Below are positions 19,597 to 54,751 of a DNA stretch of 55,793 bases, in pieces. Location: assembly GCA_030602615.1 (NCBI GenBank), contig JAUVZM010000011.1:1-55793 (forward strand). Reading direction: 5' to 3'. Made by a program: the position numbers and the translations under genes. The DNA comes from a bacterium (GTDB taxonomy: Bacteria > Armatimonadota > Zipacnadia > Zipacnadales > Zipacnadaceae). The notes beneath the pieces were generated by a model. It was given only the letters and a program-made list of their open reading frames with translations. It did no database searches and was not told the origin of the DNA. Position 1 is the first letter of the stretch. Each line of letters starts with the position of its first letter.

Positions 19597-20793
19597 CTAG
19601 TGGGAAACTTCGGTCTGGGCCTGGTGTGGCTCAGCTACCTGCAATATACGAACTCCCAGTTGGTCTTCGACGACCACGATCTCGCCACGAGCAACCAGCT
19701 TATTGCCAGCCAGAATCTCTACCGGATCATCTAGGCTGTGATCCAGGGTCACCACTGCGCCGGCGCGAAGCTCCTGCAGTTCACCCAGCGGCATAACAAC
19801 TCGTCCCAGCCGGATTTGAATCTCGACCGGAATCCCGTCCGGCGACTCCAGGTTCGTCTCACCTGTGCCTGTGGCCTCGGGCGTTTGGGCTGAGGATAGT
19901 TGCTGCTCAGATTCGGGGACACTGTTGGGCTGCTCGCTCATAGCTGTGTGGCTCCCGCTGTGAGTATTTGCCGCCAGTAAGCGTACACTAAGCTGACCGC
20001 CTTGGGCACCGGCCTGGCCGGCGGCGACCGGCCGGCCGGCGGCTTGCAGTTGCACAATCATTTTTTGGCTGTTGGGTAGCAGCAGGACGTCCCCACGATC
20101 CAGCGCCTGCAGTTCGGTCAGCTCCAGAGATGGAGCAGGCAGGACAGCCTCCAGGCACACCGGAAGGGCATGCAGTTGGCTGCGCTTGAGCCTGGCCGGG
20201 TCGGTCTCGGCATTCGCTGCGAGGTTGTTGCGCCAGGCTGCGGTCGGCGCTGCCATCACTATGTCGTGCCGGCCGCCGCTTGCTCCCAGGGGGACTGCCA
20301 CGGCAAAGCTTTCCGAGGCAAGCGGGGACTGCGGGGCATCGGCAGATAGCATCTGGTGTCGGCCACGGCTGCCAAAAAGCGTACCCAGGACGCTGCCGGC
20401 CAGTGCTTCCAGATATGGCTGCAAGATGGCCAGGTCCGTCCGGGTCAATTCTTCGGAGGATAGCTCCAGCTTCGTCGAGTATCCCAGCAATGGGCCGACG
20501 CAGCGTACTGCCAGTGCTCGGGGCATCTTTGTTACCATCTGGCTGGAACCGCCGAAGCGCGAGACCAGCGTAGGCCCGGTGGCTTGTTGTATCTCCTGTA
20601 ATTCAGACTGCTGCCAAAGCAACTGAGGGGTGTCGGTGGTGGCAGCCGTGCCCAGGTAGCTGCGGCTGACGCGGCGCAGCGCCTCGGTAAGCGCCAGCAA
20701 TTGGGCCTGCAGCACCTGTCGCTCCCGGCTATCTAGCTGCCAGGCGGCAGGGAAGCGGGCCCGCTGATATGTGGTATCAGGTGGCAGTAGCAT
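19597..20793 (-). CDS. FliM-FliN fusion (two SpoA domains), C-ring/sorting-platform protein
   Basis: A 398-residue protein. Residues about 25-195 resemble the CheC-like middle domain of FliM (LTEALRRVSRSYLG... LGGxLEALAGSVL-type pattern). A first SpoA domain lies at about 205-275 and a second at about 320-386 (PVEIQIRLGRVVMPLGEL... DDPVEILAGNKLVARGEIVVV), joined by a Ser/Gln/Glu/Pro-rich linker of about 40 residues. FliM and FliN, or SctQ in type III secretion, form the cytoplasmic C-ring. The usual FliM N-terminal CheY-binding peptide (LSQDEIDALL-like) is absent. The ATG at 20793 is chosen because a start at 20934 would run deep through the FliJ-like gene; as chosen it overlaps it by 17 bases. 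Last gene of the operon. Confidence 0.8.
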   Translation of the reverse strand: MLLPPDTTYQRARFPAAWQLDSRERQVLQAQLLALTEALRRVSRSYLGTAATTDTPQLLWQQSELQEIQQATGPTLVSRFGGSSQMVTKMPRALAVRCVGPLLGYSTKLELSSEELTRTDLAILQPYLEALAGSVLGTLFGSRGRHQMLSADAPQSPLASESFAVAVPLGASGGRHDIVMAAPTAAWRNNLAANAETDPARLKRSQLHALPVCLEAVLPAPSLELTELQALDRGDVLLLPNSQKMIVQLQAAGRPVAAGQAGAQGGQLSVRLLAANTHSGSHTAMSEQPNSVPESEQQLSSAQTPEATGTGETNLESPDGIPVEIQIRLGRVVMPLGELQELRAGAVVTLDHSLDDPVEILAGNKLVARGEIVVVEDQLGVRILQVAEPHQAQTEVSH

Positions 20794-21256
20794 TGAAGTG
20801 AGGATTGTTGGTGACTTGCACGGTGCGCACCAGGTCATCGAATCGCCTCTGGCGGCTGCGCCGGGCTGCTTGGGTGGCTTGCTGCTGGAGCCGGGTGATA
20901 GCCTTTTGGGCCGCCCGCCGCAGTTGGGCGGCATTGACCAGCTCGGCCTGTCTGCGGGAGGCCCTCTGCTTGAGCCGCTGATGTGTGCGCTGGATTCGGG
21001 TTATGCGCCGGTCCAGGTCGGCCAGTGCGCGCTGGCATCGCTGGTGCCAGTCAACGGTATCTGGGACCTGTCTACCTGCGTCGTTACGCAAAGTGGTCTG
21101 TTCCCGGTGCAACTTGGCCAGTCTGGCCTCGGCTGCGTGCTGCAGCCTGCGACATATCGCCGCTCGTCGCTGGCATAGCTGTTCTCGCTCTGCACGGTGA
21201 TTCAGGATTTTGTCCATCCGGGCGATACGTTTGTTCATCGGGCCTTTCTCAGGCAT
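20777..21256 (-). CDS. fliJ: FliJ/SctO-like coiled-coil protein
   Basis: A 159-residue, highly charged, Arg/Gln-rich, almost wholly helical protein with heptad patterns throughout (RLQHAAEARLAKLHREQ, KAITRLQQQATQAARR). FliJ-family stalk proteins have little conserved sequence, so the call depends on size, coiled coil and position right after the FliI ATPase. FliJ acts as the central stalk of the ATPase hexamer. An internal ATG at 21238 with GAGAAAGG just before it is an alternative start; the ATG at 21256 overlaps the end of fliI by 8 bases. Confidence 0.65.
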   Translation of the reverse strand: MPEKGPMNKRIARMDKILNHRAEREQLCQRRAAICRRLQHAAEARLAKLHREQTTLRNDAGRQVPDTVDWHQRCQRALADLDRRITRIQRTHQRLKQRASRRQAELVNAAQLRRAAQKAITRLQQQATQAARRSRQRRFDDLVRTVQVTNNPHFNATAT

Positions 21257-22586
21257 TCATTAGGTCTGTCAACCATTGGCGGGTGCGGTCGGAGGGCGAA
21301 TACTCGTCAGGACGCTGCTGCAGGAACTGGTTCATCTCGGCGCGCAGCGCCAGGGCCCGGTCTACGCGGGGGTCGCTGCCTCGGGTGTACGCCCCTACAT
21401 CTATCAGGTCCCGGGCCTGATTGCGGGCTGCCACCAACGAGCGGAACTGAGCCGCGGCCTGGCGGTGGTCTGGCTCAACGACATCGGCCATCAGCCGCGA
21501 GACCGAGCGGGTGATGTCAATAGCCGGGTAGTGGTCAGCTTCGGCCAGTTGTCGGGAGAGCACGATGCGCCCATCGAGAATAGCAGTGGCGGCATCGCCG
21601 ACCGGGTCATAAATGTCGTCCTGTTCGACCAGCACAGTGTAAAGGCCTGTTATTGTGCCTTGCTGAGTAGCCCCGGCCCGTTCCAGAAGCTTGGGGAGCA
21701 TAGTGTACAGTGACGGCGGATAGCCGCCGGTGGTGGGCATCTCTCCGGCTGCCAGGCCGACTTCACGCTGGGCGCGAGCCAGGCGGGTCAGCGAGTCCAT
21801 CAGTAGCAGAACATTGGCACCGCGCTGGCGGAAATACTCGGCAATGGCGGTAGCGGCCAGCCCGGTATGCACCCGCAGCAGCGGGGACTGGTCGGAGGTA
21901 GTCACCACGACGACGGATTTGGCCAGTCCCTCGCCCAGATCGCGCTCCAGGAAATCGAGAACTTCGCGCCCGCGCTCGCCGACAAGTGCAATTACGTTGA
22001 CATCGGCACTACTGTGACGGGCAATCATCCCCAGCAGCACGCTCTTGCCGACGCCAGCTCCGGAGAAGATGCCCAGCCGCTGTCCCTGGCAGCAGGTGAG
22101 CAGGCCGTCAATGGCCCGTACTCCCACCCACAGTGGCTCAGTTATCCGGCGACGCTTCAGTGGCGGTGGCGGAGCGTTTTCCAGAGCCTGATGGCTCTGG
22201 ACTGGGATGGGACCTTTGTCATCCAGTGGCCGGCCAAAACAGTCTACTACCCTCCCCAGCATCTGTGGCCCCGTGCCGATCTGCAGTTGCTGTCCGATAG
22301 CCACCACGCGGCAGCCCGGCTCGACGCCTCGCAGCGAGCCGAGCGTCAGCAGAATGGTATGATTCTCGCGGAAGGCCACCACCTGGGCGTAGATTGGATC
22401 ATCGCCGCCGTCCGGCTGCAGCGTACACAGTTCACCGATCTGCGCAGCCGGGCCTCGGGCCACGATTGTCAACCCGGAAATCTCCACTACCGTTCCGGCT
22501 CGCCGGAACCGGCTGGCTGTCCGGGCTTGCTCAACCAGGTGCTCAAATTGCTGGACTTGCTTGTCGATGATCGGTTGTATAGACAT
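21249..22586 (-). CDS. fliI: FliI/SctN-type ATPase of flagellar or type III export
   Basis: A 445-residue ATPase related to the F1 beta subunit that energises or primes substrate entry in flagellar and type III export. Walker A is SGAGVGKS; the family motif ALVGERGREV follows; Walker B is LLLMDSLTR; then RAQREVGLAAGE, GYPPSLY and ILDGRIVLSRQLA. Length and motifs are fully preserved, so it is probably active. It sits directly between fliH-like (20-base gap) and fliJ-like (8-base overlap) genes, the usual order in flagellar operons. Confidence 0.93.
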   Translation of the reverse strand: MSIQPIIDKQVQQFEHLVEQARTASRFRRAGTVVEISGLTIVARGPAAQIGELCTLQPDGGDDPIYAQVVAFRENHTILLTLGSLRGVEPGCRVVAIGQQLQIGTGPQMLGRVVDCFGRPLDDKGPIPVQSHQALENAPPPPLKRRRITEPLWVGVRAIDGLLTCCQGQRLGIFSGAGVGKSVLLGMIARHSSADVNVIALVGERGREVLDFLERDLGEGLAKSVVVVTTSDQSPLLRVHTGLAATAIAEYFRQRGANVLLLMDSLTRLARAQREVGLAAGEMPTTGGYPPSLYTMLPKLLERAGATQQGTITGLYTVLVEQDDIYDPVGDAATAILDGRIVLSRQLAEADHYPAIDITRSVSRLMADVVEPDHRQAAAQFRSLVAARNQARDLIDVGAYTRGSDPRVDRALALRAEMNQFLQQRPDEYSPSDRTRQWLTDLMNA

Positions 22587-22606: not shown

Positions 22607-23215
22607 TTATTGCTCTATGTATGCTGGTAGGCTTCGGTGAATCTGGGCCAGTTGGGTGGGGATGTCGGCATCAATGATTTCATAGTCGCTTTCCACAATA
22701 CAGCCTCCGCGTTCAATGCTGGAGTCACCGATTACGCGCAGGTTGGAGAGCCGTCCCAGCAGCGTTTCGTCGGTTTGGAGGATGTCTTGCACGACCGGCC
22801 GATCGTCGGGATGGACGCGCACGTGCAGTTCTCCGTGGCAGGCCAGGTCCTCCAGAGCGGCTTTGACGGTGCGTTCGATAACCCGGCGGTCCTGGCGAAT
22901 CTCGGCGGCGACGATGCGCCGGGCGATGGCGATAGCCAGACGGACAAGATGGGGCTGGAGCTCCTCCAGCAGGCGCTCCTTGTCGTGGGCCAGTTGGGTG
23001 GTCAGGTCATGAAGCAGGTTTCTGATGCGCGCCCTCTGCGCTGACCCATCCTGCAGGTCAGCAGAGGTAGCCGCGGTTCCGTCACTGCCTGCCGGGTTGT
23101 TCGGGGGGGTGGTTTCGTGACCAAAGCCTGATTCGAATCGCACCGGCCTTACCCACGGCCCCCTCTGGTCTATGTCCGCTTTTTTCAGCAGCCGTTCACT
23201 CACTGTGATCACCAC
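22607..23215 (-). CDS. fliH: FliH/SctL-type ATPase regulator
   Basis: A 202-residue protein with the FliH pattern: a variable N-terminus, a helical middle (about 65-110: LTTQLAHDKERLLEELQ, LVRLAIAIARRIVAAEI) and a C-terminal alpha/beta domain (RVHPDDRPVVQDIL, VIGDSSIERGGCIVES, IDADIPTQLAQI). FliH forms the spokes linking the ATPase to the C-ring. The ERGGCIVES motif is strongly typical of FliH/SctL. It overlaps the FliF-like gene by 20 bases. The start is uncertain: GTG at 23215 or GTG at 23203; neither has a strong ribosome site. Confidence 0.87.
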   Translation of the reverse strand: MVITVSERLLKKADIDQRGPWVRPVRFESGFGHETTPPNNPAGSDGTAATSADLQDGSAQRARIRNLLHDLTTQLAHDKERLLEELQPHLVRLAIAIARRIVAAEIRQDRRVIERTVKAALEDLACHGELHVRVHPDDRPVVQDILQTDETLLGRLSNLRVIGDSSIERGGCIVESDYEIIDADIPTQLAQIHRSLPAYIEQ

Positions 23216-24191
23216 CGTTGCCGAGGGTATTCTGGCTTGCCGTCAATTTAGTGCGCAGGGCCTCGATGAATGAGACTAAGATTTCTTCCCGCGTCGGTCG
23301 CGTTGGCTCAGATAAGCTCCCAGGTAGAGCATTCATCTGTTGCCGGACAGCGGCCGCTGTTTCCGGGTTGGGCACGTGCTGCAGGAGGGCGGCTACCACC
23401 TCAGGACGTTCACCGTCGGCCAGTGAAGTGATCTGGCCGGCGGTTAACCCACTGAGAAACTGCTCGAGCTGGCGTGGTCGGCTGGCCGCAGTCTCGCCGC
23501 TCGTTTGGGCCTGCTGGCTGCCTCGCCGAGCCTGCCGCAGGTACAGGGCGGCCAGAGCGATAGATAGCAGTGCTGCCAGCCCCCAGACCACTGACGGCAT
23601 TTTGAAGGGAGTCTTTGGCTCAGCAAGTGGATCGGTGAGCGCTGGCAGGCTGGAGGTCATCATAGCTACTGCTGCGGTCGGTTGCCCTTTGGCGTAGAGG
23701 ACCTCGCCGCGGCTGTCGATGATTAGTAGGTCGGCCGGCTGTAATCCAGGGACGGTATGCAACACGAAAGTAACCAGGTTGTCCAGCCAATTATCCGGCA
23801 GTATAGAGGCAGGCTGGAACCGTAATTGCAGTGAGAGGCCTGGGGAGCTGGCAGTTTCCGTCTCTGGAGGGCTTACAGCGAAGGTAGCCTGAGCGGCGGT
23901 GATGTAGTCATAGCCGCCCAGGGCACTTTCCAACAGTTGCGTGGTTTCGGCTTGCCTGCGCCGGGTGGTGCCGGGGAGAGGGAGGGATAGCACATTTGTT
24001 GGCAGCGTCGCTCGCGAGCCACGCTTATGCTCTGCGCCATCAGACGAGGTTAGTGCAGTCGGCCCACGGTAGCCCTGGTATAGTGCTACTCCCAGGGCAA
24101 CAGCTACGATGACACTCACAATGGCATAAGCCATCCGCGAGTGTTGAGAAAGCGCCTGCCACCAGCGAAGTAGGTCGCCCAGTGCCTCCAT
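23196..24191 (-). CDS. Reduced FliF/SctJ-like ring protein with FliG-like tail
   Basis: A 331-residue protein, much shorter than FliF (about 550). Helix 1 (19-39) and helix 2 (199-218) flank a periplasmic region containing one ring-building motif of the FliF RBM2/SctJ type (about 75-170; LLESALGGYDYITAAQATFAV, VTFVLHTVPGLQPADLLIIDSRG). RBM1 seems replaced by a short Ser/Pro-rich stretch, and the RBM3 collar domain is absent. The cytoplasmic tail (about 240-290: QFLSGLTAGQITSLADGERPEVVAALLQHVPN) resembles an armadillo motif of FliG, without FliG's C-terminal torque domain. No separate fliG is present. First gene of the five-gene operon. Confidence 0.72.
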   Translation of the reverse strand: MEALGDLLRWWQALSQHSRMAYAIVSVIVAVALGVALYQGYRGPTALTSSDGAEHKRGSRATLPTNVLSLPLPGTTRRRQAETTQLLESALGGYDYITAAQATFAVSPPETETASSPGLSLQLRFQPASILPDNWLDNLVTFVLHTVPGLQPADLLIIDSRGEVLYAKGQPTAAVAMMTSSLPALTDPLAEPKTPFKMPSVVWGLAALLSIALAALYLRQARRGSQQAQTSGETAASRPRQLEQFLSGLTAGQITSLADGERPEVVAALLQHVPNPETAAAVRQQMNALPGSLSEPTRPTREEILVSFIEALRTKLTASQNTLGNGGDHSE

Positions 24192-24298: not shown

Positions 24299-24327
24299 AG
24301 TATATCATATCTCCCCAGTGTTGTCAA
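24299..24327 (-). promoter_or_regulatory. Near-perfect sigma-70 promoter of the fli-like operon
   Basis: Minus strand TTGACA (24322-24327), 17-base spacer, TATACT (24299-24304). It lies about 108 bases upstream of the FliF-like ATG. Flagellar middle operons often use sigma-54 or sigma-28; here the match is to the housekeeping type. The 294-base gap to larE otherwise holds no gene. Confidence 0.7.
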
Positions 24328-27424: not shown

Positions 27425-28438
27425 TCAGCAGATGCGGGGCAGTATCTCGCCGGGGGGCATCTCGACGATGCGGATGGTTCCCAGAGGCGTGCGCAGATGC
27501 ACTTGGGAGCGGTCGGCGCTGGTTACTTGGCCGATGATAGCTGCCTGCTGACCGCCGTCGCACGATTTCATAATAGTCAGGGCCTCGTCGGCCACCGATC
27601 CGTCCACGAAGGCCAGCACCTTCCCCTCGCAGGCCACCTGCAGCGGATCAAGCCCCAGTATCTCACAGACGCCAGCCACCTGCGGCAGTATGGGCAGTGC
27701 CGCCTGGTCAGTCTCCATGGTTACGCCGGCCTGAGTGGCGATTTCGTTCAGCGTGCTGGCCAGCCCGCCTCGGGTTGGGTCGCGTAGGGCGTGGACTTTC
27801 TCGCCCAGCTCGTCAATGAGTTTGCTGGTGATCCCGGCCACTGGTGCTGAGTCGCTCAGTATCTCGCCACTGACGTCAAGCTCCTCCCGCGCACACATCA
27901 CCGCCACACCGTGGTCAGCGATAGTTCCGTTAATGAGCAGCGCATCGCCGACTGCCACTCGCTTGGGGTCAATGTTTGTCTGGGCTGGGACCACTCCCAG
28001 CCCGGAGGTATTGACGAACAACCCATCAGCGGCACCGCGCTCAACCACTTTGGTGTCACCGGTGACGACAGCCACGTCGCAGCGCTCGGCGGCTTCCGCA
28101 ACCGATTTAGTTATGCGGTGTAGATCCTGTGTCGGGAAGCCTTCCTCGATGACAAACGCCAGCGAGATGAACTCGGGAACCCCGCCCATCATTGCCACAT
28201 CGTTGACCGTGCCGTGGACAGCCAGGCTGCCGATGTCTCCGCCCGGGAAGAACAGCGGCGAGACAGTAAACGAATCGGTAGTGAACGCTATCCTTGCCTC
28301 GCCGATGGTTATAACGGCAGCATCATTCAGGGCCTGGCCGGCGCGCTGGAGCAGGGGGGCGAACTGCTGGGCGATAAGCTGCTGGGAAAGCAGCCCCCCG
28401 GCGCCGTGGCTGAGGGTAATAAGTTCGGGCTTCTTCAT
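27425..28438 (-). CDS. hypE: Hydrogenase maturation protein HypE (carbamoyl dehydratase)
   Basis: A 337-residue AIR-synthase-like protein that dehydrates the carbamoyl group on its C-terminal Cys to thiocyanate, giving the CN ligands of the [NiFe] site. It starts ELITLSHGAGG and ends in the signature LPRIC, whose Cys is the carbamoyl acceptor. The ATG at 28438 is preferred over 28483 because the family normally begins just before the LxHGxGG motif. It is the last gene of the hyp operon, separated from hypD by a gap of about 150 bases containing REP-like palindromes. Confidence 0.94.
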   Translation of the reverse strand: MKKPELITLSHGAGGLLSQQLIAQQFAPLLQRAGQALNDAAVITIGEARIAFTTDSFTVSPLFFPGGDIGSLAVHGTVNDVAMMGGVPEFISLAFVIEEGFPTQDLHRITKSVAEAAERCDVAVVTGDTKVVERGAADGLFVNTSGLGVVPAQTNIDPKRVAVGDALLINGTIADHGVAVMCAREELDVSGEILSDSAPVAGITSKLIDELGEKVHALRDPTRGGLASTLNEIATQAGVTMETDQAALPILPQVAGVCEILGLDPLQVACEGKVLAFVDGSVADEALTIMKSCDGGQQAAIIGQVTSADRSQVHLRTPLGTIRIVEMPPGEILPRIC

Positions 28439-28507
28439 AGGCTGCTGAGAGTCTCCACTGATATATTGAGCAGGACCGGTCATGGCTGGGCGGCACCAGA
28501 AGTGCCG

Positions 28508-28532
28508 GTAGGAGCGGCATTCCTGCCGCGAC
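28508..28532 (+). repeat. REP-like palindrome A with GTAG head
   Basis: A 25-base element starting GTAGGAGC, with a hairpin GCGGCA-TTCC-TGCCGC (28514-28529) and ending GCGAC. Its first 24 bases are identical to the element at 32898-32921 read on the other strand. It lies in the hypD-hypE gap, paired with an inverted relative 18 bases away. Confidence 0.75.
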
Positions 28533-28550
28533 TACTCTTGCTCCTACAGC

Positions 28551-28575
28551 GTCGGGACAAGAATGTCCCTCCTAC
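28551..28575 (-). repeat. REP-like palindrome B, inverted partner of A
   Basis: Read on the minus strand it starts GTAGGAG, forms GGGACA-TTCT-TGTCCC and ends CGAC. Both arms of the stem differ from element A with compensating changes, so pairing is kept. A and B in inverted orientation resemble a REPIN. Between them, 28540-28547 is another GTAGGAGC head on the minus strand without a stem. B reaches into the last codon of hypD. Confidence 0.75.
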
Positions 28576-29657
28576 GAACCGTATGATTGGTATTGGTAAA
28601 CCGCGGCGCAGGCTCCCTCGGAGGAGACCATGCACGGGCCAACCGGATGATCCGGCCGACAGGCAGTCCCAAACAGAGCGCAGTCGGTCGGCTGAACCGC
28701 ACCGCGCAGGACCGCCCCACAGTCGCAGCCGGGCGGCTCCGGGACCGGCTTCAGATCCAGGGCGAAGCGCTTCTGGGCGTCAAGCTGGCTGTATTCATCG
28801 CGGATGCGCAGGCCACTGGCGGGAATCTCGCCCAGTCCGCGCCAGCGTGTGTTGGTGACCTCGAAAACTTGATTCATCTTGGTTAGCGCGACGGGATTGC
28901 CCTCAGGTTTTACCACACGATCGTATTGAATGAGCACCTGCGGGTTATTCTCGCGGTGCATCCGCGCCAACATATAGACCGACTGCAGCACATCCAGTGG
29001 CTCAAAGCCGGCCACCACGCAGGGGATACCCTGCTCGGCCAGGGGCTGGTAAGGATATGAGCCAATGATCGCGCTGACGTGGCCCGGGCACAGGAAGCCG
29101 TCAATCTGCACGTCGGGCTGGCCGATGAGGGCTTGCATGGCGGGAGGAATAAGCCGGTGAGCGACGAGTACGCTGAAGTTGGTCAGGCCCAGTTGGCTGG
29201 CCTCACTGATGCAGATGGCTACGCTGGGCGCTGTGGTCTCGAACCCCACGCCCATAAAGACGATTTCATCGTCAGGATTTTCTTGCGCCCACTCGACCGC
29301 CTGTATTGGCGAGTATACTATCCGCACCTGCCCCCCCTCGGCCTTCACCTCGCTCAGGCTCCCGTCACTGCCGGGTACCTGCATCATATCGCCAAAAACC
29401 GCCAGCCAGATACCCTCGCGGGCTAGCTCGATAGCGGCGTCAATCACCTCCGGCGGGGTCACGCACACCGGACATCCCGGCCCCGAGATAAGCGTGAGCT
29501 GCGCGGGCAGCATCTGGGTCAGCCCATAGCGAGCGATGACGTGCGAGTGGGTACCGCAGACCTCCATAAATGCCAACGGCTGGTCAACAGCTTCATGTAT
29601 TTGCTGGGCCAGCCGGCTTGCCTTCTGCGGATTGTGGAACTCCTCTACGTACTTCAT
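28572..29657 (-). CDS. hypD: Hydrogenase maturation protein HypD
   Basis: A 361-residue [4Fe-4S] scaffold protein that, with HypC, assembles the Fe(CN)2CO unit of [NiFe] hydrogenase. Family motifs: FMEVCGTHSHVIARYG, ISGPGCPVCVTP, VGFETTAP, GFLCPGHVSAIIG, and a Cys-rich C-terminal part with CDCGAVLRG and CALFGTAC. The ATG at 29657 overlaps the hypC stop in an ATGA, which supports it over a start at 29678. The C-terminus runs about 15 residues past the usual end, partly through REP-like sequence. Confidence 0.95.
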   Translation of the reverse strand: MKYVEEFHNPQKASRLAQQIHEAVDQPLAFMEVCGTHSHVIARYGLTQMLPAQLTLISGPGCPVCVTPPEVIDAAIELAREGIWLAVFGDMMQVPGSDGSLSEVKAEGGQVRIVYSPIQAVEWAQENPDDEIVFMGVGFETTAPSVAICISEASQLGLTNFSVLVAHRLIPPAMQALIGQPDVQIDGFLCPGHVSAIIGSYPYQPLAEQGIPCVVAGFEPLDVLQSVYMLARMHRENNPQVLIQYDRVVKPEGNPVALTKMNQVFEVTNTRWRGLGEIPASGLRIRDEYSQLDAQKRFALDLKPVPEPPGCDCGAVLRGAVQPTDCALFGTACRPDHPVGPCMVSSEGACAAVYQYQSYGS

Positions 29658-29887
29658 CCCTGTCCGAAGCTCTCCCACCAGCCGATCTCGTCCAGCATCT
29701 CCAGAGTTCTGTGCGCTTCTTCTTCATCTACCCTCTCGATGGCAAAGCCGGCGTGCACCAGCACGTAGTCGCCGAGCTGGGCGTCGGGCAGCATATCCAG
29801 GCGCGTCTTTACCTGGCTGCCGCCAATCTCGGCGATGCCCCGGTTGCCATCTATTTCAATCAGTCTGCACGGCAGCGCAACACACAT
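29654..29887 (-). CDS. hypC: Hydrogenase maturation chaperone HypC
   Basis: A 77-residue chaperone. It begins MCVALP, with the essential Cys2 that binds the iron unit or the hydrogenase large subunit, and contains GDYVLVHAGFAIERVDEEEA, the family's beta-barrel signature. It sits between hypF (2 bases upstream) and hypD (4-base overlap), showing translational coupling. Confidence 0.96.
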   Translation of the reverse strand: MCVALPCRLIEIDGNRGIAEIGGSQVKTRLDMLPDAQLGDYVLVHAGFAIERVDEEEAHRTLEMLDEIGWWESFGQG

Positions 29888-29889
29888 AG

Positions 29890-32184
29890 CTATCTGTTCC
29901 TCGCTGCAGCTACCACTGCCTGCCCCAGCGCCAGGCCGCCGTCGTTGGGCGGCGTTTCTTTGTGAATAAGCACTGCAAAGCCTGCTTTAGTAAGCTCGTG
30001 GTGCAACCCAACCAACACCAGCTCATTCTGGAAAGTGCCGCCAGAGAGCGCTACCTGGCCGATATTGGTCTCGTCAGCCACTTGCTGAACTGTGTCAGCC
30101 AGCATCTGCACAAATGCATTGTGGAAGCGAGCCGAAATCTGGCCTATCGCAGTACCCGCCTGCAAGTCATTCACGATTTCGTGGAACATCGGGCCGGGCT
30201 GCATAATGAGCATATCATTGTCGCGAGTGATTTCGTAGCTGTAGGCCTCTTCAGCTTCGGTAGCGGCTGCTTCCAGCATTATGGCTGATTGGCTCTCGTA
30301 GGCCTCCACCGGGCACAGTCCCACCAGCGCTGAAACTGCCGAAAACAGCCGGCCGGCACTGGAGGCCAGCGGACAGTTTATATCCTTCTCAATCATTTGC
30401 TTGAGCACGCGCCAGGTATCTGTGTCCAGCGTCTGACAGAACTTAATGTCGGCGTCCAGTAGCCTCTGGCAGTCCAGGTATACTGCGGCCATCCGCCAGG
30501 GCTGCCTGATGGCCTGCTCGCCGCCGGGCAGTGGGACGTAGTCGAGATGGGCTGCGCGTGTGTAATCATCGTAGCTGCTGACCAGCACCTCGCAGCCCCA
30601 TACAGTGCCGTCGGCTCCATAACCGGTTCCGTCACAGGCTACTCCCAGCACCGGTCCCGCTACGCCGTGTTCAGCCATGCAAGCGGCGATGTGGGCGTGA
30701 TGGTGCTGGACAGTGACCGTCTCCAGGCCCTGCTCTTTGGCAAACTGCTGAGCATAGCGCGTGCTCAGGTAGCTGGGATGCAGGTCGTGGGCAATCAGAT
30801 CGGGAGTGACGCGCAGTACGTCCTGCAGATGTTCGACGCACCACTTGAAATATTCCAGCGTCTCGGCGTCCTCCAGGTCACCGATATGCTGGCTCAAGAA
30901 AGCATTATGCCCCTTAGTAAGGCAGAAAGTATTCTTAAAATGTCCGCCGACGGCCAGGGTCTTGCCCAGGTCTCGCTCCAGCTTGATGGGAAAGGGAACA
31001 TATCCGCGGGCCCGCCGCATAATAATTGGCCCCAGCGGGGTGGGGCGGACCACCGAATCGTCGCAGCCGATGTTGATTTTTCGGTTATGCAGCAGAAATC
31101 CGTCGGCGATATGGCCCAGGCGCTGGCGGGCCTCGTCGTTCTGGGTGGTCAGCGGTTCTTCGCTGAGGTTGCCGCTGGTCATCACCAGCGCCAGCAGGCG
31201 GTCGTCGGCCAGCAGTAGATGGTGCAGCGGCGTATACGGGAGCATAGCGCCGTGATACTTACTGTCCGGAGCTACTGACGGCGCAATAGTCGAGTCTTTT
31301 TGCATCAGCAGTACGATTGGCCGGATCGGGCCGCTCAGCAGCGCTCGCGCCTCGTCGGTGACCTCGCAGTAGGTTTGAATGTCTGCCAGGGATGCAGACA
31401 TTATCGCCAGCGGCTTCTGCTCGCGGCCTTTGCGGCGGCGCAGCTTCTGGACTGCCTCTTCGTTGGTCGCATCGCAGGCCAGGTGAAAGCCGCCCAGGCC
31501 CTTGATGGCAACAATCCCTCCGGCCACCAGCCGCTCGATAGCTTCTTGCACGGCCTTATCTCGGGTGTAGTGCTTATCACCCACTACCAACTCCACATGC
31601 GGGCCGCAGACCGGGCAAGCATTGGGCTGGGCATGGTAGCGGCGGTCGTCAATGTCGTCGTACTCGCCCTGGCACTGCGGGCACATCACAAACGGCTGCA
31701 TGGTGGTGTTGGGCCGATCGTAGGGAACAGTTTCGATTATGGTAAAGCGTGGCCCGCAGTTGGTGCAATTGATGAACGGGTACTGATAGCGGCGGTCTTC
31801 AGCATCAAATAGCTCGCGGCGGCAATCCTGGCAAGTCGCCACGTCGGGCGAGAGCAGAATGGTGCCGCCGGCGGCCTCGCGGCTGGCGGTGATGACAAAT
31901 TGGGAGTCGCCGGCAACAGGAAGCTCGCTGGTGGACATATCTTCGATGCGGGCGATGGGCGGCTTTTCTTTGGGCAGGTCCTTGATGAAGGCTGTCACAT
32001 CTCCGGGATTGCCTTCCGCCTCGATGACCACGCCGCCGGTGAAGTTGTGTACGCTGCCCGCAATATTGTGCTTCTGAGCCAGCCGGTGGATAAAGGGGCG
32101 GAAGCCGACCCCCTGGACGATGCCGGTGATGGTAATCTGGCGCCTTATGCGCTGGTCAGTTGTGAGTGCTGCTCGGTCAGCCAC
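29890..32184 (-). CDS. hypF: Carbamoyltransferase HypF
   Basis: A 764-residue protein that makes the thiocarboxamide on HypE from carbamoyl phosphate. Domains in order: acylphosphatase-like (GIVQGVGFRPFIH), two zinc fingers (CQDC...CTNC and CPQC...CPVC), a YrdC-like nucleotide domain (AIKGLGGFHLACDA, RKGREQKPLAIM) and a Kae1-like domain (VQHHHAHIAACMAEHG, GTGYGADGTVWG, SGGTFQN). The GTG at 32184 has GGAG 8 bases upstream; a GTG at 32190 is also possible. Either way it overlaps the end of hypB by about 40 bases. Confidence 0.95.
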   Translation of the reverse strand: MADRAALTTDQRIRRQITITGIVQGVGFRPFIHRLAQKHNIAGSVHNFTGGVVIEAEGNPGDVTAFIKDLPKEKPPIARIEDMSTSELPVAGDSQFVITASREAAGGTILLSPDVATCQDCRRELFDAEDRRYQYPFINCTNCGPRFTIIETVPYDRPNTTMQPFVMCPQCQGEYDDIDDRRYHAQPNACPVCGPHVELVVGDKHYTRDKAVQEAIERLVAGGIVAIKGLGGFHLACDATNEEAVQKLRRRKGREQKPLAIMSASLADIQTYCEVTDEARALLSGPIRPIVLLMQKDSTIAPSVAPDSKYHGAMLPYTPLHHLLLADDRLLALVMTSGNLSEEPLTTQNDEARQRLGHIADGFLLHNRKINIGCDDSVVRPTPLGPIIMRRARGYVPFPIKLERDLGKTLAVGGHFKNTFCLTKGHNAFLSQHIGDLEDAETLEYFKWCVEHLQDVLRVTPDLIAHDLHPSYLSTRYAQQFAKEQGLETVTVQHHHAHIAACMAEHGVAGPVLGVACDGTGYGADGTVWGCEVLVSSYDDYTRAAHLDYVPLPGGEQAIRQPWRMAAVYLDCQRLLDADIKFCQTLDTDTWRVLKQMIEKDINCPLASSAGRLFSAVSALVGLCPVEAYESQSAIMLEAAATEAEEAYSYEITRDNDMLIMQPGPMFHEIVNDLQAGTAIGQISARFHNAFVQMLADTVQQVADETNIGQVALSGGTFQNELVLVGLHHELTKAGFAVLIHKETPPNDGGLALGQAVVAAARNR

Positions 32185-32801
32185 TGGCACAGCTCCGTTA
32201 TACCCTCGCCGGTGGTACAGGAGGTGGCGAACTGGACTGCCTCCGGTTGAAGCTGCTGGCAGAGGTTCCAGAACTTCTCGGTATCAAATGGTGAATGGGG
32301 AATCAGGTCAAGCTTGTTAAGGATAATTCCCTGGCAGGTGCGAAAGGCCACCGGATATTTCTCGGGCTTGTCATCACCTTCAGGAATGCTACAGACCACA
32401 AAGCGAAATTGCGCGCCCAGCTTGAAGGCTGCCGGGCAGACCAGGTTGCCGACGTTCTCAATAAGGAGCAAATCAGTGCTGGCCAGGTCCATTTTGTCAA
32501 TAGCCCGTCGCACCATCGGGGCATTCAGGTGGCACATCCCGCCGGTATTGATCTGAAAGGCCTCGGCGCCGGCTGCTTCAATGCGCTCGGCATCGTTGGC
32601 GGTAGCCACATCGCCCTCGATGACCCTGACCGTCAGCCCCTTGAGTTGCTGAATGACCTTTTCCAGAATACTGGTCTTCCCACAGCCGGGGCTGCCCATC
32701 AGATCCACAGCCAGCACGTTATGATCTGCCAGGAGCTGCTGGTTTTCCTGAGCGGCCGCATCGTTGTCGCCCAGCACGTCGGTCATCAGTTCTACTTGCA
32801 T
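32145..32801 (-). CDS. hypB: Hydrogenase nickel incorporation GTPase HypB
   Basis: A 218-residue GTPase that with HypA delivers nickel to the hydrogenase large subunit. The P-loop is GSPGCGKTS (36-44); the metal-site segment GGMCHLNAP, ENVGNLVCPA, and the guanine motif NKLDLI are visible. It lacks the N-terminal CxxCGC nickel site and any His-rich stretch, so it is a simple, non-storage form. First gene of the minus-strand hyp operon. Confidence 0.95.
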   Translation of the reverse strand: MQVELMTDVLGDNDAAAQENQQLLADHNVLAVDLMGSPGCGKTSILEKVIQQLKGLTVRVIEGDVATANDAERIEAAGAEAFQINTGGMCHLNAPMVRRAIDKMDLASTDLLLIENVGNLVCPAAFKLGAQFRFVVCSIPEGDDKPEKYPVAFRTCQGIILNKLDLIPHSPFDTEKFWNLCQQLQPEAVQFATSCTTGEGITELCQWLTEQHSQLTSA

Positions 32802-32897
32802 AAGCTACCTGCTTTGTTGGCTTGCTTGGTTAGTGCTATTGCATACTTCCTTTTGTTTAGACGTGTCTCCTTCGCGCTGCGTTGAAGCCCGCTAGAC

Positions 32898-32921
32898 TCG
32901 CGGCAGGAATGCCGCTCCTAC
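32898..32921 (-). repeat. REP-like palindrome C
   Basis: Identical over 24 bases to element A (28508-28531) but on the minus strand: GTAG head, GCGGCA-TTCC-TGCCGC hairpin, GCGA end. It lies in the 186-base gap between the divergent hypB and hypA genes, just upstream of the hypA promoter. Confidence 0.75.
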
Positions 32922-32933
32922 CATCCGGTATGC

Positions 32934-32962
32934 TTGCTGGAGGAAGCAGGCAGTGGTACAAT
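32934..32962 (+). promoter_or_regulatory. Probable promoter of hypA
   Basis: TTGCTG (32934-32939), 17-base spacer, TACAAT (32957-32962), 26 bases upstream of the hypA ATG. Confidence 0.45.
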
Positions 32963-32987
32963 GCCGCCGATTGGGTGAATAGCAGCT

Positions 32988-33356
32988 ATGCATGAGTTCT
33001 CCGTCGCCTCCAGTATCGCACGCCAGCTTACCGAAGTTGCTCGGCAGCACCACAGGAAGCTCTTGGGCGGGACGGTGGCCATTGGCCCGATGAGCACGGT
33101 GGTCCCGGAGTTACTTAGTGAGGCCTGGAAATACGTCATCAAGGACACAGAACTGGACGGGGCTACGCTCCACATCGAGCAGGTCCCCATCCGGGCGCGG
33201 TGTCGCGAGTGTGATGCTGTTACCGAAGGGCACGACCCGTTTGTGAGATGCCGCGCTTGTGACAGTATGAATCTGCAGATAGAGTCGGGATTTGAGCTGC
33301 AGATAACTGGCGCCGAACTGGCTGACGATACAGAGAATGCCAGCCCCGCCCGGTAG
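32988..33356 (+). CDS. hypA: Hydrogenase nickel metallochaperone HypA
   Basis: A 122-residue metallochaperone. It starts MHE, giving the His2 nickel ligand, and has the structural zinc site CxxC (Cys72, Cys75) and CxxC (Cys88, Cys91). The N-terminal helix MHEFSVASSIARQL is typical. It is transcribed away from hypB, unlike the usual hypAB arrangement, and converges on the maturation protease gene. No strong ribosome site is visible, but the MHE start fixes the N-terminus. Confidence 0.94.
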   Translation: MHEFSVASSIARQLTEVARQHHRKLLGGTVAIGPMSTVVPELLSEAWKYVIKDTELDGATLHIEQVPIRARCRECDAVTEGHDPFVRCRACDSMNLQIESGFELQITGAELADDTENASPAR

Positions 33357-33402
33357 GGCCACTTGCCAGTAGGGTCTGCGCGATTTTCTCAGCGTTATTA
33401 GG

Positions 33403-33876
33403 TCAGGGCCGGGGGGAGTTAGACTGGCGGCGGTCGGGCAAGTCGGCGACAAAACGGTCAATCGCCTCGGTGATCAATGGCGTCAGGGGCTGGCCCCAGC
33501 CCAGGTTTTGCGGCTGGATGCCCAGTATCAGCATCTGCTTGTCCTTGACTCCTGCCAGCACCTTGGCCAGCAGCCCTACCGAACAGTTGTGTGTGGAAAT
33601 GCTGGCGTCGGCCAGCTCGTCGGGCGCAAGTAGACCTATTTCGCCGGGAGCTTGCTTCATATCTACGGCATCGACCAGTAGAATGGTGTCAGCTGGGTTG
33701 TCCAGCATTTCTCCAACATAATTCTCTGGTACCTCTTCGCAGCGCAGGTATTCCAGGTCGAGCTTTTCCGCAACCTTCTCGGCCAGAACTAGCCCGGCCT
33801 CATCGTCGCCACGCATTGGATTACCCACGCCCACAACTAACATCGGGCGATCAAAGTGGTCTTCAAGCAGATTCAT
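33403..33876 (-). CDS. [NiFe]-hydrogenase maturation protease
   Basis: A 157-residue endopeptidase of the HycI/HybD (M52) family that removes the C-terminal peptide of the hydrogenase large subunit after nickel insertion. Motifs: VVGVGNPMRGDDEAG (nickel-site acidic residues), LLVDAVDM, and ISTHNCS with the third metal-sensing His. ILGIQPQNLGWG near the end is typical of the HycI branch, suggesting a group 3 or 4 hydrogenase, but no structural hydrogenase gene lies in the window to confirm this. Confidence 0.92.
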   Translation of the reverse strand: MNLLEDHFDRPMLVVGVGNPMRGDDEAGLVLAEKVAEKLDLEYLRCEEVPENYVGEMLDNPADTILLVDAVDMKQAPGEIGLLAPDELADASISTHNCSVGLLAKVLAGVKDKQMLILGIQPQNLGWGQPLTPLITEAIDRFVADLPDRRQSNSPRP

Positions 33877-46879: not shown

Positions 46880-47788
46880 TCAGTCGTCCTTGTCCGTTTT
46901 CCAGCGGTCGTGTAGCCACAGCCACTGCTCAGGGTAGCGGCGGACCTGTTCACTCATAGCATCATTGATCTGCTGAGTCAACTGCTTAGTGAACTGGTCG
47001 CGATCGTCGGTTTGCGGCAGAGGAAGCGGCGGTAAGATCTGGCTGACGAAGCTGCCATCGGGCAGGCGGCGGGTGAAGAAGGGAACCAGGGCGCAGCCGG
47101 TGTGCAGAGCCAGGACGGCTGGGCCGGCGGCTGTGGCAGCGCGACGTCCCAGAAACTCGAGCTCGAGGCCCCTTCCGGCAGCATGCTGGTCGGGGACGAT
47201 GCCCAGCCCGCGATTGTCACGCAGGATTCGGATCATTGCGCGCACGTCCTCCCGGCCTAGCACCTCGATGTTGTGGTGCTGGCGCGCCTGGTTGATCAAT
47301 CGGGCACAGACTGGTTCATTGGAGTCGCGGGCCAGGACCGTAACCGGAAATCCCTCAGCGGCGAAGCGGGCCCCGCCCAGCTCCCAATTCCCGAAATGGG
47401 CAGTGAAAACCACGGCACCCCGGCCCTCAGCGAAGGCCTGATGAAGGTGCTCAGTGCCCTCCAGGGAGACAAGTGCCTTCACTTGCTCAGGAGTCATATA
47501 GCGCATCTTGAATAGTTCGATCATCGTCTTGCAGATGTTGATGGTTGACTGTAGTACGATGCTGCGCCGCTGGGCCGCAGAGAACTGATCTCCGAAAACC
47601 TTGCGGATATTCTCGCGCGCCAGGCGCTGGCGGGAAGGGCATAGTAGATATATAAGGTAGGCCAGACCAGTGGCGATGACCCGCAGCCAGCTCAGTGGCA
47701 GGATGCGGGCTAGCCCGTCCACGGTGCGGACCACATTGCGGAACATCCAGTAGCCAATTCGCTTGCCCAGCGGGCGTCGCTCAGTCAT
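46880..47788 (-). CDS. lpxL: Lipid A biosynthesis acyltransferase (LpxL/HtrB family)
   Basis: A 302-residue late acyltransferase that adds a secondary acyl chain to the Kdo2-lipid A precursor at the inner face of the inner membrane. N-terminal membrane helix, catalytic HxxxxE in TAHFGNWELGG, then IVPDQHA and the FFTRRLPDGSF segment. Last gene of the LPS operon; overlaps lpxK by 8 bases. Confidence 0.92.
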   Translation of the reverse strand: MTERRPLGKRIGYWMFRNVVRTVDGLARILPLSWLRVIATGLAYLIYLLCPSRQRLARENIRKVFGDQFSAAQRRSIVLQSTINICKTMIELFKMRYMTPEQVKALVSLEGTEHLHQAFAEGRGAVVFTAHFGNWELGGARFAAEGFPVTVLARDSNEPVCARLINQARQHHNIEVLGREDVRAMIRILRDNRGLGIVPDQHAAGRGLELEFLGRRAATAAGPAVLALHTGCALVPFFTRRLPDGSFVSQILPPLPLPQTDDRDQFTKQLTQQINDAMSEQVRRYPEQWLWLHDRWKTDKDD

Positions 47789-48935
47789 AGTGAGACTCTC
47801 CTAGGGCCTGCCGGGCGCGATCCACCACTTCGGCAACTGCCTGCTGGCCACTGATTATCTGCAGTTGGCACGCGACGACCACTACTGGTATGTCCAACTC
47901 TCGATCCGGCCACTTCACGGCGTCTTTGGCAGTGATAGCGACAAAGTCGGCCTGCTGGGCGCGGGCAGCCGCTTCGATCTCTCGCAAATCCTGCACCGTG
48001 TAGTAATGATGGTCAGCATAGCGCCGAGCAGTCACTTCAGCGCCAAGCCGGCGCAGCGATTGCTCAAAAGACTCAGGATTGCCGATTGCTGAGACTGCCA
48101 GCACCTGTCTCGCGCATATCTGCTCTAATGCTACCGGCTGCCCGCGGAGCATACGAAGCCCGGTGATTTGATGTGTTGTTTCGACGACTGGCAGTTCCTC
48201 GGCGCTGTGGCGCACAAGCTTTTTCAGTCGGGAAAGTTGGGCTGGGTCGGCCTGGTCGGCGTGCGTAAGCCAAATCTGGTCGGCGCGGCGCAAGTGGGCA
48301 ACAGGTTCCCGCAGATAACCGGCTGGGAAAAGCTGCTGGTGGCTTATGTCAACCGTCGCATCAATTAGCACTATGTCAATCAGCCTATTCATCCGGAAAT
48401 ACTGAAAGCCGTCGTCAAGTATCACGATCTGAGCGTCACTGTCTTCGGCCAGCCGGGCAATAACTGCCTCGCGGCGCTTGCCAACTGCAACTGGCACCCC
48501 TTCGAGCGTCTGCGCCAGCAGGCAGGCTTCGTCGCCTGTCTCGGAAACGCGCCACCCCGTGGTGGCTTCGTCGCCCCAAAGAATAACTGGCTCGCGCCCG
48601 ATCTGACCTCGGTAGCCGCGCAGGACTATCGCTGGCTTGATGCCAGCGTGCTGCAGGTGGCGGGCCAAGAAGGCGGCGGCAGTGGTCTTGCCGGTGCCGC
48701 CCATAGTCAGGTTGCCGATGCTAATGGCAGGCAGCGCCGGGCAGGTGCGCCGCTTCCGGCCGCTGGTATACAGCAACAAGTTACCCTTAAGTCCCAACCA
48801 ATATAGCCCGGAAACCGCCTGCAACAGCAGTCGGCTGATGCTGGCTGACAGGCTGGTATCCTGACCGGAAACTGTCTTTTCCCACCAGTGAGACAAAGGC
48901 GTCGATTGCCTGGGGGCCTGGTGGTTTTTCATCAT
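47781..48935 (-). CDS. lpxK: Tetraacyldisaccharide 4'-kinase
   Basis: A 384-residue P-loop kinase that phosphorylates the 4' position of the lipid A disaccharide. Walker A SIGNLTMGGTGKTT, the ILDDGFQY motif with the catalytic Asp pair, and the ITAKDAVKW segment are clear. The N-terminus carries the short helix before LGLKGNLLLY. Overlaps waaA by 4 bases and lpxL by 8. Confidence 0.94.
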   Translation of the reverse strand: MMKNHQAPRQSTPLSHWWEKTVSGQDTSLSASISRLLLQAVSGLYWLGLKGNLLLYTSGRKRRTCPALPAISIGNLTMGGTGKTTAAAFLARHLQHAGIKPAIVLRGYRGQIGREPVILWGDEATTGWRVSETGDEACLLAQTLEGVPVAVGKRREAVIARLAEDSDAQIVILDDGFQYFRMNRLIDIVLIDATVDISHQQLFPAGYLREPVAHLRRADQIWLTHADQADPAQLSRLKKLVRHSAEELPVVETTHQITGLRMLRGQPVALEQICARQVLAVSAIGNPESFEQSLRRLGAEVTARRYADHHYYTVQDLREIEAAARAQQADFVAITAKDAVKWPDRELDIPVVVVACQLQIISGQQAVAEVVDRARQALGESHYD

Positions 48936-50290
48936 TCGGCCAGCAGTAGGGCCAGCTCGCTGACCATCCGCTGGGAGGCGCCGGACTGTTTCTGCAGCAG
49001 GCTGTGGCCCTTGGTTTGATAAAGCTCGCGCTCGGCCTGGGAAGCGAGCAGGCGATTGGTGACCTCGACCAGCTCGCTACCATTCTCCACCTGAATAGCC
49101 GCCTGCTGGTCGAGGGCCAGGTCGGTTATATCCTGAAAGTTATGCATATGCGGGCCAAAGACCACCGGCTTGCCCTGGGCCAGCGGCTGGAGGATGTTGT
49201 GGCCGCCCCGGGGCACCAGGCTGCCGCCCATGAATACCAGCGTGGCAATGCTGAAGATGCGATTCAACTCGCCGATGGTATCCAGTATCACCACCCGCAC
49301 CTGGGTGGTGGAGCGCAGATCAATATCTTTGCCCTGCTGATGCTCTGCCAGCACCCGACTGCGCCGGTAGGTGGCGTAACCGTGCTCGCTGACCAGCTTT
49401 TCGATCTCGTCACCGCGTTCGGGATGGCGCGGAGCAATGACCAGCTCCAGATCAGGATGGCCCGCGCGCAGCCGGTCGAAGGCGTCCAGTACCGGTTCGT
49501 CCTCCCCGGGATGGGTAGATGCGGCCAGCAATACCGGAGCCTCCTGGCTGAGGCCGAGATCCTGCCGCCATTTAGCTTCTTCTTCCGGTGGAACGTGCGG
49601 GAAGTTCTCGTCGAACTTGCTGTTGCCACTGACTTTTACCCGCTGTGGCGGTGCGCCCAGCGCAATGAACCGGTCGGCGTCTTTTTGCGACTGGCTACAG
49701 ACCAGATCAATGTTGCCTAGCGTCCAGGCAAAAAGTGGACGGAACAGTCGGTTCTTGGGGAAGGCGGCATCGGAGATGCGGCCGTTTACGACGGCGGTCG
49801 GAATATTGCGGGCACGGGCTGTGGCCAGAAGATTGGGCCACAGTTCGCCTTCCATCAGTATGATCAAGTCAGGGCCGATGGTACGCAGGACCCGCTCGGT
49901 TATGCCAGGAAAATCGAAAGGGAAGTAGATGAGTGCTTCGACGTCGAGCTGGAGCTTTTGGGCCATCTTCCGCCCGGTTGGCGTGGTCGTGGACAGGACG
50001 ATCTGGCCGGTGGGCTCGGCCAGGCGCAACTGCTGCAATATTGGCTCGGCGGCGGCCACCTCGCCGACCGAGACAGCGTGCACCCAGATAATGCACCCGT
50101 CAGCTTCTTTCAATTTGCTGACTGAATCGGGCAGTATGCCCAGGCGCTGGGCCAGGCCTGCGCGGGACTTGCCCTGAACTACCAGTCTCCACAGTAGATA
50201 TAGGGCCACCACGGGCAGCAGGATGACAAGCACGATATTGTACAGTATTTTGCGCCAATTTGCGCTGATGTTGCTTAGTAGTGCTTTCAT
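48932..50290 (-). CDS. waaA: 3-deoxy-D-manno-octulosonic acid (Kdo) transferase
   Basis: A 452-residue GT-B glycosyltransferase that adds Kdo to lipid IVA. An N-terminal anchor helix (ILYNIVLVILLPVVALYLLW), IIWVHAVSVGEVAAA with the catalytic-region Glu, LMEGELWPNL, and the C-terminal MGGSLVPRGGHNILQPLA donor-site motif. Whether it adds one, two or more Kdo units cannot be told from sequence. 44 bases after msbA; overlaps lpxK by 4. Confidence 0.95.
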   Translation of the reverse strand: MKALLSNISANWRKILYNIVLVILLPVVALYLLWRLVVQGKSRAGLAQRLGILPDSVSKLKEADGCIIWVHAVSVGEVAAAEPILQQLRLAEPTGQIVLSTTTPTGRKMAQKLQLDVEALIYFPFDFPGITERVLRTIGPDLIILMEGELWPNLLATARARNIPTAVVNGRISDAAFPKNRLFRPLFAWTLGNIDLVCSQSQKDADRFIALGAPPQRVKVSGNSKFDENFPHVPPEEEAKWRQDLGLSQEAPVLLAASTHPGEDEPVLDAFDRLRAGHPDLELVIAPRHPERGDEIEKLVSEHGYATYRRSRVLAEHQQGKDIDLRSTTQVRVVILDTIGELNRIFSIATLVFMGGSLVPRGGHNILQPLAQGKPVVFGPHMHNFQDITDLALDQQAAIQVENGSELVEVTNRLLASQAERELYQTKGHSLLQKQSGASQRMVSELALLLAE

Positions 50291-50334
50291 GAATTAGTTC
50301 ACAGCTTAGCCTGGGCGGATGGTGGGTTTCTGAC

Positions 50335-53315: not shown

Positions 53316-53368
53316 AGATCAAAACCATAGGGCGAAGCTGGACGATCCAGGGTGTGGGGTGGGGGTGG

Positions 53369-54157
53369 CTAGTGAGGGTCAAGCTGACGGCCACCGTACC
53401 CCTCATCAATACGCAGCATAAAGTCAGTGAGCCGCCTGACCTCGGCTGTCGGATCTGACTGCTCCAGTATCGTGCTCACTGCGTCGCTGACGTTGAGATC
53501 GCTGCGAAACAGCAGGCGATAAGCGTGCTTGAGGGCAGCGATCTGTTGCGATGACATATCGTGGCGCTGCAAGCCCCGGGTATTAAGTCCGTGGGGTCGG
53601 GCGGGGTTGCCACCAACGATCATGTATGGCGGTACGTCGCGGACAATCTTGGAGAACCCGCCGATCATTGCTGTGGTGCCGATGGTAACGAATTGATGGA
53701 TGCCCACCATACCCCCAAAGTTGACGTTGTCTTCAATGACGCAATGCCCGCTGATTCCGACATTATTGGCCATTATTATGTTATTGCCCAGAACGGCATC
53801 GTGGCCTACATGCGAATAAGCCATAAGCAGATTGTGGTCGCCGATCTGCGTGCTTTGGCCGGCGCTGCTGGCACGGTGTATGGTTGCGAACTCCCGGATG
53901 TGATTGTGGCAGCCAATTATCAGGTAGGACTCTTGTCCCTCATACTTTATGTCCTGGGGGGGTTCTCCCAGTACCGCCCCGGTATGGATTTCGGTTCCGG
54001 CCCCCAGCGTTGTCCCCGCCCGAATTACTACATAGGCGCCGATGATACAATCGTCGCCGATTTGAGTGTTACCTTCAATGATTGCGTGGGGCTTAACGGT
54101 GACGTTTTTGCCCAATTCGGCTTGAGGATCAATTATGGCTGTCGGATGTATATTCAT
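53369..54157 (-). CDS. lpxA: UDP-N-acetylglucosamine acyltransferase
   Basis: A 262-residue left-handed beta-helix enzyme, first step of lipid A synthesis. Repeated hexapeptides from IHPTAIIDPQAELGKNV onward; ATIHRASSAGQ; catalytic His in LLMAYSHVGHDAVLGN; GMVGIHQF; then the C-terminal helices (LNTRGLQRHDMSSQQI, ALKHAYRLLF). Overlaps fabZ by 4 bases (ATGA). Confidence 0.95.
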   Translation of the reverse strand: MNIHPTAIIDPQAELGKNVTVKPHAIIEGNTQIGDDCIIGAYVVIRAGTTLGAGTEIHTGAVLGEPPQDIKYEGQESYLIIGCHNHIREFATIHRASSAGQSTQIGDHNLLMAYSHVGHDAVLGNNIIMANNVGISGHCVIEDNVNFGGMVGIHQFVTIGTTAMIGGFSKIVRDVPPYMIVGGNPARPHGLNTRGLQRHDMSSQQIAALKHAYRLLFRSDLNVSDAVSTILEQSDPTAEVRRLTDFMLRIDEGYGGRQLDPH

Positions 54158-54621: not shown

Positions 54622-54751
54622 ATGCTGCGTGGCTCCTTTCCCGAGGCACACCCAACCCGGGTCCTGCTCACCAGTCAGCCTAGTGCCAATCTCCTCTGAC
54701 AGTCCAGCCGCTGGCAAGTCTTGGCCACGGGCTTGTGCAGATGCCGCAGAA

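Follow-up and report, generated by a model that had tools for sequence, protein, structure and literature searches.

A FliF RBM2-FliG middle-domain fusion in a reduced, putatively export-only gene set of the Zipacnadia

What might a FliF-like protein do when it has kept a single ring-building motif (RBM) and ends in a piece of FliG? This question is raised by a gene in the window, by which we mean the whole 55,793-nucleotide stretch that was analysed (contig JAUVZM010000011.1 of assembly GCA_030602615.1), which comes from a 93% complete draft metagenome-assembled genome of the Armatimonadota (Zipacnadia). Read from the minus strand, with its ATG at 24191 and its stop codon ending at 23196, the gene was called as an open reading frame of 331 residues; the plus-strand translation of 23196-24191 is riddled with stops and is not open. 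In the flagellum, RBM2 is described as forming the inner ring in which the export gate sits, and RBM3 as forming the S-ring, while the MS-ring is said to stabilize the gate and FliF to support the assembly of FlhA (PMC8092281). A preliminary description made from the sequence had seen in the protein a FliF reduced to one such motif of RBM2/SctJ type between two membrane helices, with a tail resembling a FliG armadillo repeat without the torque-generating domain, and had proposed that it assembles a ring that does not rotate.

The predicted architecture was borne out. Hydropathy indicates a first membrane helix at about residues 20-38 (24078..24134, minus strand) and a second at about residues 200-218 (23538..23594, minus strand), which enclose a single motif of the FliF RBM2 type at residues 72-168 (23688..23978, minus strand), as seen in profiles, Foldseek and structure alignment. 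The second helix is followed by a cytoplasmic domain at residues 235-324 (23220..23489, minus strand) that profiles and structure alignment identify as the FliM-binding armadillo, or middle, domain of FliG. The Pfam model YscJ_FliF aligned residues 84-166 with its positions 94-178 of 179, which is the RBM2 half only, at an E-value of 0.0086 that falls under the curated cut-off, and Pfam FliG_M matched one out of 10 members of the short FliF family. A 10-member profile of the family compared with the PDB recovered FliF RBM2 at E 1.8e-8 and, over the tail, four FliG chains at E 0.07-0.5. When profiles split by region were built from 23 relatives, the RBM profile matched FliF proteins with E-values as low as 6.7e-15; two SctJ proteins also came up, at 3e-6 and 1e-5. 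The profile of the tail, run on 5224 open reading frames, matched eight outside its own family, all of them FliG (one a fragment), at E 1.1e-6 to 0.015; five column-shuffled versions of it gave zero matches among the same 5224. In whole genomes the tail part of the 10-member profile found matches in seven (E 4.6e-6 to 9.7e-4), which overlapped a FliG_M match in all four of these genomes that belonged to the FliG_M sample, the other three lying outside that sample.

The structural comparisons agree with these assignments, although the AlphaFold model has a mean pLDDT of 62 and was made from a shallow alignment of 6 sequences. A Foldseek search of the PDB returned FliF as its top 34 matches (E up to 9e-4), followed by the injectisome ring proteins EscJ and PrgK, and structure alignment with VIA-align placed residues 72-168 on FliF 125-222 (Z 10-11) and residues 235-324 on FliG 96-191 (Z 9.4 for 8wiw, 8.6 for 3usy, 8.2 for 3hjl and 7.4 for 8umx). 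Profiles and structure comparisons thus gave the FliF RBM2 and FliG matches foreseen in the preliminary description; the tail is a FliG armadillo domain, and the part of FliG that it covers is the middle domain, the torque-generating domain being absent. The dual label RBM2/SctJ has to be narrowed: the motif is an RBM2, and its assignment to SctJ instead of FliF was rejected, as SctJ matches too but FliF matches better in both profiles and Foldseek. In the flagellar motor the D3 region of FliG (107-186) is reported to bind FliMmid, the middle domain of FliM (PMC11087270).

That RBM1 and RBM3 are missing, and not merely divergent, is evident from the lengths of the flanks. Across 23 aligned relatives, one of which is cut at the N-terminus, 20-34 residues separate the first helix from RBM2 and 14-32 separate RBM2 from the second helix; flanks of at most 34 and 32 residues leave no room for another RBM in any of the 23, and hidden copies were rejected on this ground. 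In canonical FliF proteins of the same phylum the second helix is located near residue 420-445. A close relative (L038:1595-2491, 298 aa) has lost the linker between the first helix and RBM2, including an otherwise conserved PLPGT motif, which may be an assembly error or a tolerated deletion. A FliG_M search of the assembly did not find a separate FliG, its best match having an E-value of 0.012. Among flagellated members of the order some FliG_M matches are themselves weak, for example 1.3e-10 and 7.3e-10 in one family (f2), and the places recorded for such matches are G009:C157:51820-52038, G104:C2:303999-304214 and G147:C72:5828-6049, one of them in a 506-aa frame; the FliG of this order may have diverged too.

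The fusion gene (23196..24191) is the first of an operon on the minus strand in the order FliF, FliH, FliI, FliJ and FliM-FliN. Upstream of it lies a sigma-70 type promoter, TTGACA-17-TATACT (24299..24327, minus strand), with 11/12 consensus positions and a TG before the -10 element, in a scan that found 3 sites against 1.2 expected. The end of the fusion gene is overlapped by the gene for a FliH/SctL-like ATPase stator (22607..23215, minus strand; Pfam FliH, E 2.4e-24), after which come a FliI-type export ATPase (21249..22586, minus strand; TIGR01026, 551.7 bits against a cut-off of 379.5), a FliJ-like coiled coil (20777..21256, minus strand; Pfam FliJ at E 4.3e-4 and TIGR02473 at E 1.2e-6, both below their cut-offs) and a FliM-FliN fusion (19597..20793, minus strand), the start of which was set by the 398-aa open reading frame of a relative, the longest frame starting at 20934. 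This fusion had been named as the partner of the short FliF, and its composition is in keeping with that: it has a FliM middle-like domain and two SpoA domains. A profile of its N-terminal part matched, each time at the FliM middle domain, three flagellar FliM proteins (E 2.9e-6 to 3.5e-5) as well as a further member of the fusion's family, and matched none of the three injectisome SctQ proteins in the set. These alignments begin 22-38 residues into flagellar FliM, which indicates that the CheY-binding N-terminus is absent; the structure model of the fusion (pLDDT 37) was too poor to use. Elsewhere in the window we noted by eye a hydrogenase-maturation (Hyp-like) cluster beyond the upstream neighbours of the operon (27425-33876) and a set of lipid A/Kdo genes (46880-54717; LpxA, FabZ, LpxB, MsbA, WaaA and LpxK-like). 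The latter suggest an outer membrane with LPS, in which case any cargo of an export system would face the periplasm.

The remainder of an export apparatus is encoded on two further contigs of the same genome, one (C47) with FliN-, FliO-, FliP-, FliQ-, FliR- and FlhB-like genes and the other (C25) with FlhA and a FliA-type sigma factor; FliP, FliQ, FliR, FlhA and FlhB all score over their Pfam cut-offs. In the genus of the window the cluster is thus divided over three contigs. Relatives in two other families (f3 and f4) have a single cluster of 12-13 genes encoding the short FliF, FliH, FliI, a FliJ-sized frame, a FliM-like protein, FliN, FliO, FliP, FliQ, FliR, a short FlhB, FlhA and the sigma factor. 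The short FlhB, which has 240 residues in the window's genome, measures 229-266 aa where complete, and all 12 aligned sequences break off some 25 residues short of the NPTH switch domain; the flagellar FlhB of genomes that also hold the short form has 358-364 aa. The sigma factor gene adjoins flhA in 11 out of 11 clusters with a complete flhA of the reduced type, and two genomes with both systems (L157 and L164) carry another FliA-type sigma gene in their flagellar cluster. A search of the genome for FliA boxes gave 4 matches against 14 in a reversed control, so that no sigma regulon is visible, and this route to the substrates was dropped.

No conserved neighbour pointing to cargo was found among the clusters compared. 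Six f4 clusters contain, between fliP and fliQ but in the opposite orientation, homologous genes for a putative lipoprotein (L174:6576-7412, L175:7190-8038, L182:10741-11709, L189:4488-5327, L191:7218-8156 and the partial L177:10514-10795), about 280 aa long in three of them, with a lipobox recognized by eye and no Pfam match in the one that was scanned; it is a possible partner or cargo of the export system. In the window's genome an amidohydrolase gene (L005:9994-10773; Pfam Amidohydro_2) sits between fliO and fliP.

The distribution of these genes shows that the reduced system is separate from the flagellum. Among 151 genomes of the phylum, FlhB-family matches occur in 95 and rod-family (PF00460) matches in 90, and shortened FlhB matches in 13, all within the order of the window. 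In that order the short FliF is present in 26 of 41 genomes, 13 times beside a canonical FliF and 13 times without one, a tally made by frame length and match in which several of the latter 13 genomes are less than 90% complete; eight of the remaining genomes have canonical FliF only and seven have neither. The rod/hook family PF00460 gave no match in the window's genome or in any of six sampled genomes with the reduced system only. Flagellin (PF00669) was absent from all nine tested genomes with only the short FliF and present in all six with both forms. This pattern bears on the suggestion that the system is an accessory of the flagellum, such as an assembly helper or regulator working with the canonical motor: the flagellar type of its parts and the 13 genomes with both forms would suit such a role, which is hard to reconcile with its retention in 13 genomes without canonical FliF, flagellin being absent from the nine of these that were tested and the rod family from the six that were sampled, and we consider it very unlikely.

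The same figures have the opposite bearing on the idea that the system is a relic in decay, left over as a flagellum is lost. The half of the bearers without canonical FliF and the scattering of the cluster in the window's genus might be read in this way; however, a canonical FliF stands alongside in the other half, the cluster is conserved across several families, and the domains that are missing do not differ between lineages. Furthermore, all tested genes of the reduced system are under purifying selection: between the window's genome and its closest relative, eleven of them have dN/dS values of 0.08-0.35, as compared with 0.11 and 0.20 for the housekeeping genes pyrG and pgi. The co-occurrence with canonical FliF and the purifying selection largely refute the relic, which we reject as highly unlikely.

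In a concatenated tree of six export proteins the 13 reduced systems form a clade (UFBoot 74) that falls outside the one formed by the flagella of the order itself (UFBoot 100). The AU test rejected none of the tested placements, namely with the order's own flagella (p 0.20), within the Armatimonadota flagella (0.53), outside a monophyletic flagellar group (0.54) and with injectisomes (0.78); ancient duplication, transfer and early divergence therefore all stand. The last of these values is compatible with a contact-dependent, injectisome-like system whose needle, SctD and secretin have diverged too far or are encoded elsewhere, as are the presence of secretins in 12 of 12 genomes tested and the score of the FliM-FliN fusion, which exceeds the NCBIfam cut-off for SctQ. 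Yet the T3SS contigs of four genomes (the window's genome G000, G049, G127 and G024) hold zero secretins, FliO, the FliG middle domain and the FliA-type sigma factor are flagellar traits, and both the RBM2 and the FliM-like domain side with their flagellar and not their injectisome counterparts. We accordingly regard an injectisome-like system as unlikely.

Based on these observations we propose, as the probable reading, that the short FliF is the base plate of a stand-alone, flagellum-derived export machine, one that does not rotate and does not assemble a flagellum. FliP, FliQ and FliR would form the gate with the help of FliO, joined by FlhA and by an FlhB consisting of its membrane half only, and the short FliF would insert through its two membrane helices and ring this gate with RBM2, in the manner of the inner M-ring. 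As there is no rod to seat, RBM3 and the collar, which make its socket, would have gone. The fused FliG middle domain would hang below the membrane and dock the FliM-FliN fusion by the latter's FliM middle domain; this fusion would in turn carry FliH, FliI and FliJ. The short FliF would thereby keep the FliM-docking part of FliG and dispense with those for torque and for binding the tail of FliF itself; the N-terminal and torque domains of FliG and the CheY peptide of FliM would have been lost because nothing is turned or switched, and the autocleaving switch domain of FlhB because there is no transition from rod and hook to filament. Substrates would cross the inner membrane, and the dedicated FliA-type sigma factor would probably couple their expression to the machine. 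One reading would accommodate all these losses, namely a machine that exports but neither builds nor turns anything. The ring without rotation proposed in the preliminary description would be retained in it, and the parts missing from the short FliF are one piece of a system-wide reduction that extends to the absent rod, hook and flagellin, the switch-less FlhB and a sigma factor of its own. A point that counts against export is that FlhB deprived of its C-terminal domain may be unable to export.

The export-gate core could alternatively serve a role other than secretion, in membrane nanotubes or in the inner-membrane "hat" seen near flagellar T3SS parts. The hat has been linked to FlhA and FliP, and a role of the core proteins in nanotubes is mentioned in the same work, where the hat is described as persisting in a fliF deletion (Kaplan 2022, PMC9380563). 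Here, in contrast, the core is conserved together with the short FliF, FliHIJ and FliMN, and nothing else ties the reduced system to hats or nanotubes, which makes such a role quite unlikely. On the export reading, the system could serve as a naturally occurring inventory of the minimal parts of type III export and may show how little a T3SS needs. It suggests that RBM2, the FliG middle domain, the FliM middle domain and the membrane half of FlhB are the pieces for export, and that the other pieces of FliF, FliG, FliM and FlhB serve rod building, torque and switching; what an intermediate between flagellum and injectisome could do would thus become an experimental question.

Our literature search did not find a complete flagellum-independent system with these joint reductions, or a second, reduced T3SS in the Armatimonadota. 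The order's own flagellum is among the nearest comparisons: it shares with the reduced system FliF RBM2, the FliG middle domain, FliM/FliN, FliHIJ, FliOPQR, FlhA, the membrane half of FlhB and a FliA-type sigma factor, whereas rod, hook, flagellin, a separate FliG, RBM1, RBM3 and the FlhB switch domain are absent from the reduced system. We take the gene order to be compatible with a pared-down fla/che operon. The truncation of FlhB has a parallel in the 265-aa SctU of a Rhizobium phaseoli plasmid injectisome (L196:13721-14518), which likewise ends before the NPTH position; that system has SctJ, lies in a symbiont plasmid context and is otherwise an injectisome. It is presumably Rhc subgroup III-like. 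This class of rhizobial injectisome is described in the literature (PMC3574062).

The Myxococcales have a conserved reduced NF-T3SS that is likewise described as being without secretin, needle, FlgBCDEK, FliE and a separate FliG, and that is argued to act across the inner membrane only (Abby and Rocha 2012, PMC3459982). The same account gives it an inner ring of the SctJ type together with an inner rod protein (PMC3459982). The Zipacnadia system differs in its FliF RBM2-FliG middle-domain fusion, FliO, FliA-type sigma factor and shortened FlhB, and a rod protein was not found in it. With one RBM preceded by an N-terminal membrane helix, the short FliF is also unlike the two-domain inner ring protein of the SctJ type.

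One of the closest counterparts in architecture occurs in the Chlamydiaceae. NF004606, which we take to be the chlamydial FliF family, matched the short FliF of the window at E 0.021 and gave weak matches in five of 10 members. The NCBIfam FlhA, FliI and sigma factor models used are presumably chlamydial, and the single canonical flagellar set that was tested scores at least as high against them, so that a specific link to Chlamydia through these models is unsupported. The flhA and sigma-28 genes, we believe, adjoin in the Chlamydiaceae as well. The chlamydial FliF-FliG fusion is described as a protein of about 330 residues with RBM2 only and a second RBM-like stretch (Bergeron 2016, PMC4768692), and its C-terminal 70 residues are reported to bind the cytoplasmic domain of FlhA (Stone 2010, PMC2830194). 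The latter work also notes minor similarity to FliH in the frame between fliI and fliF, the genes being numbered Cpn0858 (FliI), Cpn0859 and Cpn0860 (FliF). As this fusion, of about 330-342 aa with RBM2 but not RBM1, two membrane helices and a FliG middle-domain tail, has been published, the short FliF represents a variant of an architecture already known. The chlamydial protein differs in a shorter tail and in the second RBM-like stretch (165-235) before its second helix, where the short FliF has only its 14-32 residues. Few flagellar genes are described in the Chlamydiaceae, with contacts to the injectisome reported, whereas the Zipacnadia have the full export set, and an injectisome was not seen in them. 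More speculatively, and we hold this to be doubtful, there might be a third class of T3SS, neither flagellum nor injectisome, comprising inner-membrane exporters served by a sigma factor and a cargo of their own. Of the ring, the C-ring adaptor and the switch, such a machine would retain no more than RBM2, the FliG middle domain and the membrane half of FlhB, respectively. The chlamydial FliF-FliG, FliI, FlhA and sigma-28 would then be what is left of that machine, and the Zipacnadia would possess its complete version. The Zipacnadia provide a complete comparison system for the Chlamydiaceae FliF-FliG fusion.
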